From the NCBI RefSeq assembly GCF_026278345.1, contig NZ_CP111085.1:2616001-2680000 (forward strand): a DNA stretch of 64,000 nt. The letters are read 5' to 3'. Each line of letters begins with the position of its first letter. The first letter of the stretch is position 1. Shown here piece by piece: positions 3,807 to 57,663 of the stretch. The DNA is from Tellurirhabdus rosea. Lineage in GTDB: Bacteria; Bacteroidota; Bacteroidia; Cytophagales; Spirosomataceae. The notes beneath the pieces were generated by a model. The model made no database searches and was not told where the DNA came from. It saw only the letters and a program-made list of their open reading frames with translations. The translations under genes and the position numbers were made by a program.

Positions 3807-4397
3807 CTAATTTTTTGGAAAACTGTAGAATTGCCCCGGCGTCACGCATCCGTCCAATCGGATGTCTCCCTCGTACACGTCGTCGATTTTCGCCACTGGC
3901 TCAAACAGCGACAAGCCCATTTTAACGCAATCCGGCCGGCACTGGTCCAGAAACCGGTCGTAATAGCCGCCGCCATAGCCCACCCGGTGGCCGCGCTGGT
4001 CGAAAGCGAGCAGGGGAACGAGGACGAGAGAGATTAATGAATAATGTATAATGAATAATGAATTGTCTGGAGGCTCGGGGATGCCGTAGGGGTTGGGGAT
4101 AAAAGGCGTATCGGGGAAAATTTCGTAGTGGGTGAGCGTGCCGTCCTGCGGGTTGGTAACCGAGGCGGCGATCCGCACGCCCGGCATTTGCCAGAGTCGG
4201 CGGACAATCGGCCAGGTGTTCACTTCCTTTTGCTTTTCAATTGGCAAAAAGGTGTGTACGACGGGGTTTGTGAAGTTCTGCCCGGTGAACCAGCGGAAGA
4301 AACTCTGCTCAATCGCGTTGCAGCGGGCCTGCCGGTCGGCTTCGGGCAGGTCGCGGCGGCGCTGGCGGTAAAGGCGGCGGAGGTCGGACTTGGTCAT
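3807..4397 (-). CDS. 5-formyltetrahydrofolate cyclo-ligase family protein with a repeat-derived internal segment
   Basis: 196 aa. This family converts 5-formyl-THF to 5,10-methenyl-THF with ATP. The N-terminus MTKSDLRRLYRQRRRDL carries the basic phosphate-binding stretch, and the C-terminal half has the signature VLVPLLAFDQRGHRVGYGGG followed by YYDRFL. Just before that signature, residues reading NSLFIIHYSLIS are encoded by a heptameric AATGAAT-type repeat (4034-4064) of the kind otherwise seen between genes. The frame stays open across it. The enzyme may tolerate the insertion in a loop; activity is not certain. The region immediately upstream of the start codon is another repeat array. Confidence 0.9.
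   Translation of the reverse strand: MTKSDLRRLYRQRRRDLPEADRQARCNAIEQSFFRWFTGQNFTNPVVHTFLPIEKQKEVNTWPIVRRLWQMPGVRIAASVTNPQDGTLTHYEIFPDTPFIPNPYGIPEPPDNSLFIIHYSLISLVLVPLLAFDQRGHRVGYGGGYYDRFLDQCRPDCVKMGLSLFEPVAKIDDVYEGDIRLDGCVTPGQFYSFPKN
4034..4064. repeat. Heptameric AATGAAT repeat lying in frame inside a gene
   Basis: Four tandem 7-nt units (AATGAAT, AATGTAT, AATGAAT, AATGAAT). The same word occurs in the purD-recQ gap at 37778-37852. Here it lies inside the 5-formyl-THF cyclo-ligase coding region and is translated as about 11 residues without breaking the frame. Confidence 0.8.
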
Positions 4398-4512
4398 GTG
4401 TTTCTCGCAGATTCTCGCAGATTTTTGACGCAGATTCTCGCAGATTTTTTCTGCGTCGCAGCAGCGAACCGAACATCTCCGAATTAAATCTGCGAGAATT
4501 TGCGAGAAATAA
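4398..4512. repeat. Intergenic TCTCGCAGAT repeat hairpin
   Basis: Tandem TCTCGCAGAT words near 4403-4445 are followed by the reverse complement (AAATCTGCGAGAATTTGCGA) near 4483-4508. The array fills the gap between the bshC stop codon (4515) and the start codon of the cyclo-ligase (4397), leaving no other sequence. Similar words appear at 21040-21130 and 54571-54655. Confidence 0.75.
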
Positions 4513-29281: not shown

Positions 29282-29436
29282 AATGATTGAATGATTGATT
29301 GACTGAATGATTGAATAGGCTCCGCCAAATTTTACCCTTTGTCGGCCTGGTCAACCGCGGCGGCGGATCGCCATTCACCGCGGCGGACCGCTCATTCAAA
29401 ATTCAATCATTCAGTCATTCAATCATTGAGTCATTC
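29282..29436. repeat. Two-layer hairpin between response regulator and kinase
   Basis: The outer arms are GATTGAATGATTGATTGACT (start) and the complementary TCATTCAAAATTCAATCATT with AGTCATTCAATCATTGAG. The inner GC module has GGCTCCGCC and GCGGCGGACCGC. The words repeat every 4 or 8 nt here. The stop codon of the response regulator (29431-29433) lies inside the arm. Confidence 0.8.
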
Positions 29437-32240: not shown

Positions 32241-32246
32241 GACAAA

Positions 32247-32353
32247 TGACTGAATGATTGATTGACTGAATGACTGAATTGGTAGTCCCGTAATCAGTCA
32301 TTCAGTCAATCAGTCATTCAGTCAATCAATCATTCAGTCATTCAAAAATTCAA
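32247..32353. repeat. GACTGAAT-type hairpin
   Basis: The left half is GACTGAATGATTGATTGACT with further GACTGAAT units; the right half is the complement (CAGTCATTCAGTCAATCAAT). The centre is GGTAGTCCCGTAA. It lies between two convergent genes. The stop codon of the LON-domain gene (32342-32344) is formed by the repeat. Confidence 0.82.
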
Positions 32354-34284: not shown

Positions 34285-35046
34285 ATGAAAATCCAGTGGT
34301 TTGTCTTTCTGCTTTGCTGGCTCGCCGGGCAGGCGGTTGCGCAGTCGCTGCCGGGGCGCATCGTTGACGGACAAAGTGCAAAGCCCATACCGGCGGCTAC
34401 CATCCTGAATCAGAACACAAGGCGCGTATCCATTAGCGGCGAGGAAGGCGCCTTTCGAACGGTAGCCTCTCCGGGCGACATTCTGCGCGTGACCTGTGTC
34501 GGCTATCAGGAAATGCGGTATGTGGTGCCCGACACGGTGCAGGAACTGCGCATTGCACTTTGGCCGCAGACCGTGCAGCTTCAGGAGGTGACCGTCCGGG
34601 GCGTGGGCGGCGACCCGTTTGACCCCAATTTTTTAAAAGAAAAAGTCCCGGAAAAGCCCTCCATTCAACTGGGAACCCCGCCCGAATTGCAGGGTGTTCA
34701 GTTGACGAAAGACGTCCGCGTTAGCTCAGACCCGGTCTCGAAGGTTCCGGTAATTACCATCACCGGGCCGTTTACGCTGGCCTACAACACTTTCAGCCGA
34801 AAGGCCCGCAGTGACCGCAAGCTGAAAAAGCTGATTGAAGAAAATCGCCGGCGCAAAATCTTCAATGCCCGCCTGAATCCCGCCTGGGTGGTTCGCATTA
34901 CCGACCTGACGGACGACGAACTGGAACCGTTTATCGATTACTGCGCCTTTTCGGAGGAGTTTGTGCTGACGGCGACGGAGTACGAACTGATTCGGGCGGT
35001 CCAGAAAAAGGTGCCCCAGTTTCGCGGCAATCACGCCCAGCCTTAA
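34285..35046 (+). CDS. Carboxypeptidase-like regulatory domain protein
   Basis: 253 aa. A signal peptide (residues 1-20, AVAQ) is followed by a carboxypeptidase-D-like domain (about 22-95: GRIVDGQSAKPIPAATILNQ, EEGAFRTVASPGDILRVTCV). The C-terminal part (about 150-245) has no recognised fold. It is likely a periplasmic or outer-membrane-facing protein of unknown role. The last two codons (Gln-Pro) and the stop lie in the 34 bp palindrome shared with the convergent ricT. Confidence 0.85.
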   Translation: MKIQWFVFLLCWLAGQAVAQSLPGRIVDGQSAKPIPAATILNQNTRRVSISGEEGAFRTVASPGDILRVTCVGYQEMRYVVPDTVQELRIALWPQTVQLQEVTVRGVGGDPFDPNFLKEKVPEKPSIQLGTPPELQGVQLTKDVRVSSDPVSKVPVITITGPFTLAYNTFSRKARSDRKLKKLIEENRRRKIFNARLNPAWVVRITDLTDDELEPFIDYCAFSEEFVLTATEYELIRAVQKKVPQFRGNHAQP

Positions 35047-35108
35047 ACAATAAACAAGAAATGCCATATCTCACAGATATGGCATTTCTTGTTTATTGTT
35101 TAAGGCTG
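35038..35108. terminator. Perfect 34 bp palindrome serving two convergent genes
   Basis: The arms 35038-35071 and 35075-35108 are exact reverse complements with a 3 nt loop (CAC). The left arm starts CAGCCTTAAACAATAAACAA. Each arm encodes the last Gln-Pro codons and the TAA stop of its own gene (the carboxypeptidase-like gene on plus, ricT on minus). T-rich tracts lie inside the stem, so it can act as a bidirectional terminator. Confidence 0.85.
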
Positions 35109-36350: not shown

Positions 36351-36358
36351 AACTCTTT

Positions 36359-36492
36359 ATAGTTAAGAGTTAAAAGTTATGAGTTAAGAGTTATGAGTTA
36401 TGAGTTGAAGGTTAGTTACGTGCCTTCTGGTAAGCGGGCAAACTAACTTCTAACTCATAACTCTTAACTCATAATTCATAACTTGATAACTC
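36359..36492. repeat. AGTTATG heptamer hairpin
   Basis: The left half is AGTTAAG, AGTTAAA, AGTTATG, AGTTAAG, AGTTATG, AGTTATG in tandem. The right half is the complement (AACTCATAACTCTTAACTCA, ATAATTCATAACTTGATAAC). The centre is GTTACGTGCCTTCTGGTAAG. It spans the whole gap from the purD stop codon (36491) to just upstream of the ricT start codon (36350). Confidence 0.85.
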
Positions 36493-37780: not shown

Positions 37781-37852
37781 TGAATGAATAATGAATAATG
37801 AACAATGAATGAGCCTTTATAGTCGTCATCCCTTGTTCATTATTCATTCAAA
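37778..37852. repeat. AATGAAT heptamer hairpin between recQ and purD
   Basis: The left half is AATGAAT, AATGAAT, AATGAAC, AATGAAT; the right half is TTGTTCATTATTCATTCA. It abuts the purD start codon on one side and the recQ stop codon on the other. The same word is found inside the coding region at 4034-4064. Confidence 0.8.
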
Positions 37853-40236: not shown

Positions 40237-41214
40237 TTGAAACTAGTTAAAAAAAATATTCGCTCAACGGCACAGGCGGTTCTGCTTGCAGAATCGGAGG
40301 CAATCCGTCAGGCTGTTGAAAGTATTGATGAAGAATTTGAACGAATTGTAGAGACTATCCTGCAAAGTTCGGGCCGGGTTGTCGTGACAGGCATTGGAAA
40401 AAGTGCCATTATCGGGCAAAAAATTGTGGCCACCCTCAATTCGACCGGAACGCCCGCCCTTTTTATGCACGCCGCCGATGCTATTCACGGCGACCTGGGT
40501 ATGATCCAGTCCGACGATGTGGTCATCTGCATTTCCAAAAGCGGCAACACGCCCGAAATAAAAGTACTGGTTCCCCTGCTAAAACGCACGGGCGTCCGGC
40601 TGATTGGCTTTGTCAGCCAGACGAATTCCTATCTGGCGGCCCACGCCGACTTTGTGCTGCCCGCTCCCTGCGAGCGCGAGGCCGACCCGCTCGACCTGGC
40701 CCCCACCACCAGCACCACCGTCACGCTGGCCATTGGCGACGCCCTGGCCGTCAGCCTGCTCGAAGCGCGGGGCTTCACCCGGCAGGATTTTGCCCGCTAC
40801 CATCCCGGCGGCTCGCTCGGCAAAAAACTTTACCTCAAAGTCTGCGACCTTTACCCGCACCACCAGGTGCCGCAGGTGCCGCTCGCCGCGACGGTTCACG
40901 AAGTGATTCTGGAAATGACGTCGAAGCGGCTGGGCGCAACCGCCGTGGTTGATGAAGCAGGCTTACTGGCCGGTATCGTGACGGATGGCGACCTGCGCCG
41001 CATGCTGAGCCGCCACGGCACCCTGCACCTCGAAGGGCTGCACGCCCGGGACATCATGACGCCCTCCCCTGTGAGCGTCGCCCCCGACGATTACGCCAGC
41101 GAAGCCCTGCAAATCATGCAGAGCCGCAGCATCACCCAGCTCGTCGTCGTCGAAAACGGCCGGGTGCTCGGCTTCGTGCACCTGCACGACCTGCTGAAGG
41201 AAGGACTCGTCTAG
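40237..41214 (+). CDS. kdsD: Arabinose-5-phosphate isomerase (KdsD/KpsF)
   Basis: 325 aa with a TTG start at 40237 (translated as Met); no in-frame ATG occurs near the N-terminus. The SIS domain (about 30-175) has VTGIGKSAIIGQKIVATLNS and CISKSGNTPEI. Two CBS motifs follow (about 205-325). It converts ribulose-5-phosphate to arabinose-5-phosphate for Kdo in lipopolysaccharide. The rare start codon may keep expression low. The downstream gap is a two-layer hairpin. Confidence 0.95.
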   Translation: MKLVKKNIRSTAQAVLLAESEAIRQAVESIDEEFERIVETILQSSGRVVVTGIGKSAIIGQKIVATLNSTGTPALFMHAADAIHGDLGMIQSDDVVICISKSGNTPEIKVLVPLLKRTGVRLIGFVSQTNSYLAAHADFVLPAPCEREADPLDLAPTTSTTVTLAIGDALAVSLLEARGFTRQDFARYHPGGSLGKKLYLKVCDLYPHHQVPQVPLAATVHEVILEMTSKRLGATAVVDEAGLLAGIVTDGDLRRMLSRHGTLHLEGLHARDIMTPSPVSVAPDDYASEALQIMQSRSITQLVVVENGRVLGFVHLHDLLKEGLV

Positions 41215-41220
41215 AAGTAA

Positions 41221-41308
41221 AGAATTATGAGTTATGAATTAAGAGTTGGCTCCGCCGGTTAGCTTACTCTTCGGCGGAGCCAACTCCTAATTCATAACTC
41301 CTAATTAT
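41221..41308. repeat. Two-layer hairpin, GAGTTAT outer and GGCTCCGCC inner
   Basis: The outer half has GAATTAT, GAGTTAT, GAATTAA, GAG units and its complement (TCCTAATTCATAACTCCTAA). The inner stem is 13 bp perfect, GTTGGCTCCGCCG/CGGCGGAGCCAAC (41245-41257 and 41272-41284). It lies between the convergent kdsD and DUF4293 genes. Confidence 0.82.
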
Positions 41309-41787
41309 CTGAGTCGATTAGACTCCTGCACCAGCTTTTCGTCGCGGCGGATGAAGCGGTTGGCGAACATGTTGCAAAGCAGGGCAACGACGATGGCGTA
41401 GAAGCCGGTCGTGAACTGTCCCTGGTCGCTGGGGTTGAAAAAGTCCTTGCCCTTGTAGAGCGTCAGGTACAGCACAGAACCCATCAAACCCGTCAGCAGC
41501 AGCGCGTTGACGGCACACATGCCCATTTGCAGAACCCGGTTACGGTACTGGAAGATGGTGTAAATGGATACGCCAATAATCAGCGCCGCCAGAATGGCGA
41601 CGTAGTAAGCGGGCGTCACCACGGAAGAGGCCGTAGCGCCAACCATTTTGGTATGCGTGAGCCGGAGGGCCGTCAGTTCGGCCACTTCGTTATTGACGCC
41701 CAGTTTCTGCCAGATCGTCGTGCTGAGTACGACGCCCATCGCGACGGCAATTACGGCAAGAAACAGGGTCTGAATGCGTTGAATCAT
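41305..41787 (-). CDS. DUF4293 membrane protein
   Basis: 160 aa with four transmembrane helices (about 3-22, 58-78, 88-108, 124-145) and a short charged C-terminus (RRDEKLVQESNRLR). MIQRIQTLFLAVIAVAM is the DUF4293 start. The family is restricted to Bacteroidota and has no known function. It stands alone; the mnmD gene is divergent upstream. Confidence 0.85.
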   Translation of the reverse strand: MIQRIQTLFLAVIAVAMGVVLSTTIWQKLGVNNEVAELTALRLTHTKMVGATASSVVTPAYYVAILAALIIGVSIYTIFQYRNRVLQMGMCAVNALLLTGLMGSVLYLTLYKGKDFFNPSDQGQFTTGFYAIVVALLCNMFANRFIRRDEKLVQESNRLR

Positions 41788-44614: not shown

Positions 44615-44724
44615 GGTTTAGAGTTTATGGTTTATAGCGGTCCGCCGCAGCGGTTGCTCTGCTATACGTTGATCTGGTGTAGCAACCGCTGCGGCGGACC
44701 GCTATAAACCATAAACTCTAAACC
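44615..44724. repeat. Perfect 44 bp inverted repeat
   Basis: The arms 44615-44658 and 44681-44724 are exact reverse complements around a 22 nt loop. Each arm combines an outer heptamer part (GGTTTAG, AGTTTAT, GGTTTAT) and an inner GC module (AGCGGTCCGCCGCAGCGG). It occupies the gap between the GT-C gene stop (44733) and the CCG-domain gene start (44584). Confidence 0.9.
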
Positions 44725-57047: not shown

Positions 57048-57051
57048 ATTC

Positions 57052-57175
57052 CGTTTTCTGTTTTCCGTTTTCAGTTTTCGGTTGTCCGTTTTCTGTTTTC
57101 GGTTTCCAAATCCACGCTTTGCGGAGCAACAGAAAACTGAAAACGGACAACAGAAAACTGAAAACGGTTACTGGT
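57052..57175. repeat. GTTTTCN heptamer hairpin, left flank of the four-helix-bundle gene
   Basis: Tandem units GTTTTCT, GTTTTCC, GTTTTCA, GTTTTCG, GTTGTCC, GTTTTCT, GTTTTCG follow each other without a break. The complement follows as CAGAAAACTGAAAACGGACA with a second copy. The stop codon of the four-helix-bundle gene (57168-57170) lies within it. Confidence 0.9.
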
Positions 57176-57557: not shown

Positions 57558-57663
57558 TTGTTTTCTGTTTTCTGTCTTCCGTTTTCTATTGTATGTAAAA
57601 GTAAAGTATCAAACGAGAAACAGAAGACAGAAAACGCAAAACAGAAAACTCAAAACGGAAAAC
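57558..57663. repeat. GTTTTCT heptamer hairpin, right flank of the four-helix-bundle gene
   Basis: Units GTTTTCT, GTTTTCT, GTCTTCC, GTTTTCT are followed by complementary AGAAACAGAAGACAGAAAAC and CAGAAAACTCAAAACGGAAA. It covers the last codons and the TGA stop of anmK, and ends just before the start codon of the four-helix-bundle gene. Confidence 0.88.

Follow-up and report, generated by a model that had tools for sequence, protein, structure and literature searches.

Short tandemly repeated repetitive (STRR) heptamers form arrays between the genes of cyanobacteria, and the arrays described here are likened to them by description and not by sequence, the host group also being a different one. 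Heptamer direct repeats of the word TAACTGA occur in Beggiatoaceae, Cyanobacteria and some Bacteroidetes (MacGregor 2015, PMC4679880); in the sections of that paper cited here they are mostly intergenic, in one genome mostly placed just ahead of start codons, and within ORFs mainly found in the stop-free orientation, the asymmetry between the stop and no-stop strands and a possible mobility being remarked upon. One Bacteroidetes case lies in the purC gene, near its end (PMC4679880). The array of the present study is located within fthC, the gene of 5-formyltetrahydrofolate cyclo-ligase, in a 64,000-nucleotide stretch of the Tellurirhabdus rosea genome (the window), and is like the TAACTGA repeats in being made of 7-base direct repeats with the stop-free strand in the ORF, the sense strand TTCATTA being open, but the word is AATGAAT/TTCATTA and not TAACTGA (PMC4679880). 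According to the same sections the main genome described there contains direct repeats in 169 sets but just a single inverted repeat, whereas paired inverted arms are found here at 38 of 52 loci; the repeats within ORFs are there mostly near protein ends, whereas that of FthC is in a conserved internal loop, and a series of orthologs with changing words, as found for fthC, is not described in them (PMC4679880).

The palindromic elements of Rickettsia and Wolbachia resemble the fthC array in being in-frame repeats within intact genes (cited parts of PMC10969869 and PMC4224334), but those of Rickettsia are described as insertions of about 150 bases (PMC10969869), whereas the fthC array is a 28-base single-arm direct array with no added length; neither a net insertion (47 of 47 orthologs) nor a palindrome of about 150 bases is found in it. 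The tandem repeats of the archaeal Borgs are, in the part of PMC9879509 cited here, likewise both intergenic and in ORFs and fast evolving, and the proteins that bear them are enriched in signal peptides, but the repeat units in their ORFs are all divisible by three and the unit here is 7. With the MacGregor heptamers and the Rickettsia and Wolbachia elements the general idea of in-frame repeats within genes is thus already known, and what looks new is equal-length replacement combined with turnover of the word. No report was found in the open-licence literature of a replacement of equal length that keeps its place while the word turns over, nor of AATGAAT hairpins or repeat-derived signal peptides of such type.

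The product of fthC is assigned to PF01812 by its profile score (E 1.4e-22, 80.9 bits against a cut-off of 27, residues 3–182), its enzyme activity is predicted, and 2jcb (E 4.3e-13), 1wkc, 1ydm and others are solved relatives. Alignments that include the window FthC have 30 invariant columns with 11 rows and 17 with 24 rows. The original prediction was that four AATGAAT-type units encode NSLFIIHYSLI just before the conserved VLVPLLAFD, and they are indeed located there, one unit being imperfect: exact AATGAAT is present at 4036, 4050 and 4057 and AATGTAT at 4043, TRF gives a period of 7 with 4.1 copies and 90% matches, and none of 300 shuffles had as good a period-7 signal (z 5.5). In the translation the array peptide is followed by SL and then by VLVPLLAFD. 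The AlphaFold2 model, made from 24 sequences with a mean pLDDT of 96, has residues 112–122 mostly as loop with one short turn, just ahead of a strand, and block 111–120 has the lowest mean of the 10-residue blocks (88).

The fthC array consists of tandem copies of the AATGAAT word of the genome, with no inverted 8-mer partner within 260 bases, and it is unfolded as RNA in the folding prediction; it is a lone arm and does not form the paired hairpin typical of the other AATGAAT arrays. The intergenic hairpin that had been claimed for the same word, between the putative purD and recQ genes, is also found in the window (Table 1). Most of the gap upstream of fthC is occupied by an inverted array of another word with a similar layout. 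Inverted arrays with an 8-base unit (AATGATTG / AATGACTG) and a layout like that of the heptamer hairpins are seen at 29282–29435 and 32245–32344 of the window, and further ones, mostly with 7-base units and with other words (AGTTATG, TTTTCAG-like and others), at 36356–36483, 57049–57167, 57559–57656 and 41202–41327. Two further inverted repeats are perfect, one of 44 nt with a 22-nt gap at 44615–44724 and one of 34 nt with a 3-nt gap at 35038–35108.

Table 1. Location of the fthC gene, its heptamer array and related repeats in the window, in other loci of the genome and in related species
Feature	Location	Strand	Basis or remark
fthC, 5-formyltetrahydrofolate cyclo-ligase gene (196 aa)	3807..4397	-	ORF, PF01812 and PDB relatives
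Heptamer array, sense TTCATTA TTCATTA TACATTA TTCATTA	4035..4063	-	TRF
Codons 112–122 (NSLFIIHYSLI), loop before strand 124–128	4032..4064	-	Translation and AlphaFold2 model
Inverted array, 10-base unit (CTCGCAGATT-type), other word, similar layout	4401..4509	.	Arms 80% complementary
Intergenic hairpin of the AATGAAT heptamer, two arms	37783..37848	.	Fold z -5.2
Outer-membrane efflux protein, PF02321	L111:2420-2516		Arm as candidate signal-peptide core
Glutaminase A-like protein, PF16335	L072:2475-2501		Arm as candidate signal-peptide core
Lipoprotein-like protein with ..LFIQSC, no Pfam match	L093:2529-2619		Arm as candidate signal-peptide core
320-residue protein, no Pfam match	L099:2463-2489		Arm as candidate signal-peptide core
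(TTCATCA)4	fthC linker of G588, G586		
TTCATCG	fthC linker of G079		
TTCATCA/TCCATCA	fthC linker of G589		
TTCGTTA/TTCGCTA-like	fthC linkers of G590, G591		
Degenerate heptamer arrays	fthC linkers of G587, G065		

Counted singly, AATGAAT shows no enrichment in the window (11 occurrences against 7.57 expected, with 15 of 100 shuffles reaching 11), and tandem patterns were therefore counted instead. Over the 5.58 Mb of the genome the tandem pattern AATGAANAATGAA has 157 sites, against none for the reversed control, and the 14-mer AATGAATAATGAAT with at most one mismatch has 144 sites, again with none for the control. Since the tandem word is common and the reversed control absent, the in-gene array belongs to a repeat family of the whole genome, and to this extent the heptamer was read correctly from the start. 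The family was sampled as 52 genome stretches, consisting of the clusters among the first 100 AATGAANAATGAA sites and of exact 14-mers beyond these, inexact repeat sites being covered up to 3.46 Mb. The 38 paired loci have an AATGAAT-type arm to the left and the complement to the right, 8–154 bases apart, the opposite order occurs once among neighbouring arms, and the remaining 14 loci, with the fthC array among them, have no pair. Variants of the seventh base match between the two arms in 60 cases against a mean of 47.5 after shuffling, a value reached in 0 of 2000 arm shuffles, and one hairpin of the genome has a predicted energy of -54.2 kcal/mol (fold z -11.9). The unit words of the genome loci, which were chosen with the AATGAA word, are TTCATTA in 78 of 153 and TTCATCA in 14.

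With a rough codon-score gene caller, at least one arm is within 25 bases of a gene edge at 36 of the 39 loci classed as pairs, and both arms are so at 21 of them; these 39 include L095, which is no true pair in the arm-by-arm count. The paired arrays are co-directional in 30 of 39 cases, no clear excess over the 39 of 58 obtained with the same caller for the window itself. Only the fthC array was flagged by this caller as being inside a gene, and it is the only one found deep within a conserved gene. A query made up from FIIHYSL gave 19 matches in the own genome, the fthC array not being among them, and the longer frames obtained are arrays ahead of a start codon, or doubtful frames.

Pure AATGAAT repeats contain TAA or TGA in all three frames, and TTCATTA repeats read as FIIHYSL, stop-free and hydrophobic, in every frame. 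The latter strand is the reading strand of the fthC array and of four candidate signal-peptide cores, both strands having been looked at in one pass and the TTCATTA strand alone in the pass for candidate signal peptides. That 7 is prime to 3 would thus be the reason why the array is tolerated.

The array was originally taken as an insertion that had entered the gene without breaking the frame, and a gap of 11–13 residues was expected in the orthologs. A fthC match was found in 48 of 59 genomes, the own included, and in all of the resulting 47 orthologs there are, by a column-based count, 9–13 residues of other sequence opposite the 11 array residues and no such gap; an unrelated sequence of like length is just what the prediction itself had named as speaking against insertion. 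The array therefore stands in place of a like-sized loop. None of the 47 orthologs has a linker more than two residues shorter than that of the window, the EP-to-VPLL spacing of 17 residues in the window is the commonest one (25 of 48 rows, range 15–24), and the fthC DNA of the window aligns through the linker without a gap to that of G001, the one further genome compared from the window's genus. What survives of the coding claim is that the arrays occupy coding sequence unbroken, and a frame-preserving insertion in fthC is not supported, in view of the 47 of 47 orthologs and the gapless alignment.

A gain of length is seen in a more distant species, G599 of genus g3, which has 21 residues opposite the 11 and heptamer-like DNA (z 4.1), against 10 residues in its congener G003. 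Judged from the alignment, this loop (L332) is a net in-frame gain of about 10 residues, not with the TTCATTA word, and no word matching the insert was found in 91.5 kb of G599 contigs, of which some 5 kb, in 2 of 20 stretches, consists of N. This gain, and the different heptamer words that occupy the same codons in related species, would fit the suggested mobility, but no net insertion is seen in the fthC of the window; mobility or rewriting of the heptamer arrays is likely.

In the family fthC was found in 216 of 222 genomes, and the best-scoring loci were aligned in 29 rows with the window (L330, one of 27 new loci, absent); 150 of 155 rows of the combined set passed the motif filter, at least two genomes being present twice (L004 and L220, L024 and L231), and an earlier alignment set comprises the best 80 of 465 loci. 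The linker has a period of 7 with z of at least 3 in nine of the 150 rows, namely the window, seven of the eight loci L315–L322 of the neighbouring genus g17, and L332; the eighth g17 locus, L321, has a z of 2.9. Heptamer arrays, some of them degenerate, are located at the same place of fthC in eight of the nine g17 species examined, and fthC has no array in the ninth, G017, nor in G001 of the window's own genus. The eight linkers have the same length as that of the window, except in G590 with one codon fewer ahead of the array, the heptad phase is identical in all nine arrays, and the loop protein pattern S-x-F-I-I-H-x-S-x-F is similar across the clade.

Differences between the arrays tend to fall in one heptad column: 4 of the 5 differences in 28 bases between the window and G588 do so (P about 0.002), 4 of 6 between the window and G589 (P 0.005), and 3 of 3 between G588 and G079 (P about 0.009), with weaker values for the window and G079 (4 of 8, P 0.024), G079 and G589 (3 of 5, P 0.08), and G588 and G589 (2 of 2, P 0.11), in a test that covers the five cleaner of the nine arrays and in which the pairs are not independent.

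The main words (TTCATTA; TTCATCA together with TTCATCG; and the TTCGCTA-like word) recur as arrays elsewhere within the respective genus. TTCATCG/TTCATCA arms are present elsewhere in G586, and TTCGCTA-like arrays in contig stretches of G590 and G591. The TTCATNNTTCATNNTTCAT matches listed extend to only a minor part of G588 and not to G589, G590, G591 or the window genome. Among them, no unit other than TTCATT is present at 2 of 74 sites for G586 and at 5 of 51 for G079, and the other sites have TTCATC or other units, two sites per genome being fthC itself; many of the sites listed are close pairs on opposite strands. The word in fthC and the words elsewhere do not agree in two species: G590 has mostly TTCATC-type arrays elsewhere and TTCGTTA/TTCGCTA-like units in fthC, and G589 has TTCATTA in 40 kb elsewhere and TTCATCA/TCCATCA in fthC.

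The exact 14-mer TTCATTATTCATTA is present in 24 of 99 relatives, in many of them at one or two sites, and its distribution is patchy, with 23 sites in the own genome, 82 in G029 and 0 in G001, which is of the same genus as the window. In G029, from another genus of the family, an uninterrupted TTCATTA run of at least about 30 units is found (contig C335, 8449–8658). A strict AATGAAT hairpin pattern matched one of 395 genomes of the phylum, the own, but is too strict to judge the spread because the g17 arrays carry other words. In 305 kb of relatives' loci unselected for repeats there are seven tandem runs of period 7, five of period 12, two of period 13 and one of period 6, and none of the other periods from 4 to 11.

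Taken together, we read the fthC array as an old occupant of the loop with a single entry, which replaced a segment of equal length and whose units were homogenised under selection for frame and length, with a probability of roughly 0.55. The array would have entered the loop once, before the window and g17 lineages parted, or would have been exchanged between them, and it would have replaced old codons and added none. Slippage, or else template switching and gene conversion, may later have made its units alike, a step proposed from the comparison of species rather than of strains, while selection would have kept the frame and the length, loop length presumably mattering more than loop sequence. 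Outside fthC the same words form hairpins that often lie next to a stop or start codon, and a few arms appear to have become cores of signal peptides. The g17 arrays have the same place and phase and mostly other words, and the array is therefore probably old, its word having probably turned over since. In a tree made without the linker columns the window groups with G001, G017 and the eight carriers (support 96/88), the first forks of this clade being poorly separated. Since G001 and G017 are without the array, it may have been gained once and lost twice, or there may have been separate gains; the shared phase and length of the linkers favour one origin.

The separate gains would mean that each lineage copied its own repeat word into the same loop, at equal length every time, which is unlikely although several observations fit it. 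Besides the two species without array, the in-gene words belong to families found elsewhere in genomes of the same genus, the distant G599 has heptamer-like DNA and about 10 extra residues at this very loop, and the linker of G590 is far less like those of the closely related G588 and G586 (DNA identity 0.69 and 0.67) than is the rest of the gene (0.89 and 0.90). Phase and, bar one codon, length are however alike in nine of nine arrays, which is unexpected if they arose separately, and every one of the eight species in the supported g17 clade carries the array when the degenerate ones are counted. Linker and rest also disagree between G589 and G591 (0.60 against 0.83), and these conflicts would fit either exchange of segments between species or repeated rewriting. 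The linkers of G590 (L318) and G591 (L322) are more alike than the rest (0.85 against 0.80), though the gene tree sets them apart, which hints at segment exchange. Between the window and the eight carriers the linker identity (0.52–0.67) is about that of the rest (0.60–0.66), and this, with the similar loop peptides across the clade, would be expected if the loop were ordinary coding sequence, conserved as protein and resembling the repeat word by descent and coincidence. As an account of the whole array this is a little less likely still, because 28 bases with nearly perfect period 7, in a word with 157 tandem sites against 0, and changes piled up in one heptad column are not expected from selection at the codon level, but from the similarity of the loop pattern some of the persistence may be plain protein conservation.

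The earlier view can be saved if a mobile heptamer element was inserted in frame and a later deletion restored the length; the word is identical to that of the genome's repeat family, and, judging by G599, the loop may tolerate being longer by about 10 residues, but with 0 of 47 orthologs having a linker more than two residues shorter, and with a lone arm in fthC against a paired element at 38 of 52 loci, such a history is improbable. Very improbable is a phase-variation switch, where one 7-base unit gained or lost would put the gene out of frame and so silence the enzyme, since there are only four units, one of them imperfect, the same frame is kept in nine species, and a folate repair enzyme is to our knowledge no usual contingency gene. 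The argument for a switch is a proposal that slippage occurs readily in heptamer repeats (Mrazek et al., after the summary in the cited part of MacGregor 2015, PMC4679880).

In four genes other than fthC an array seems to supply the hydrophobic core of the N-terminal signal (Table 1), as judged by position, hydrophobicity by eye, family and orthologs. At L093, L099 and L111 at least 34 residues pass without another start codon, and at L072 a further one is located at the end of the array. The left arm at L093 and L111 has other seventh bases, an open frame and candidate ATG codons. Rows L200 and L202 are not counted in the ortholog comparison. The N-termini of the orthologs compared for L111 and L099 are unlike the repeat peptide, with the exception of G009, whose ortholog of L099 (L305) has a heptamer hairpin with a right arm that encodes FIIQCTFFILHSS; in the G007 ortholog of L099 (L311) another heptamer array is in frame ahead of the core. 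L305 and L311 are from different genera and have other heptamer words at the N-terminus of the same gene, upstream of it and within it. The ortholog of L072 in G001 (71% identical) has a signal-like sequence at that spot, and its DNA shares CTCTTCATTG with the array, so that at L072 the array may as well have grown in place out of a similar sequence as have arisen by replacement.

A wider reading, which we put forward tentatively and as rather doubtful, is that heptamer arrays in this Bacteroidota family evolve concertedly and overwrite coding sequence at equal length, that the fthC array is rewritten as the word of the lineage changes, and that new signal peptides arise repeatedly from the arms of border hairpins, where the ATG can come from the left arm and the hydrophobic core from the right. 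If the signal-peptide cases are a guide, non-coding repeats at gene borders may become functional protein segments by a simple route, simple because the 7-base unit gives the same peptide in every frame. If the in-gene word truly follows the repeats of its genome, the fthC array would serve as a natural record of the spread and homogenisation of short repeats in bacterial genomes, usable as such because the codon alignment fixes its length and phase.
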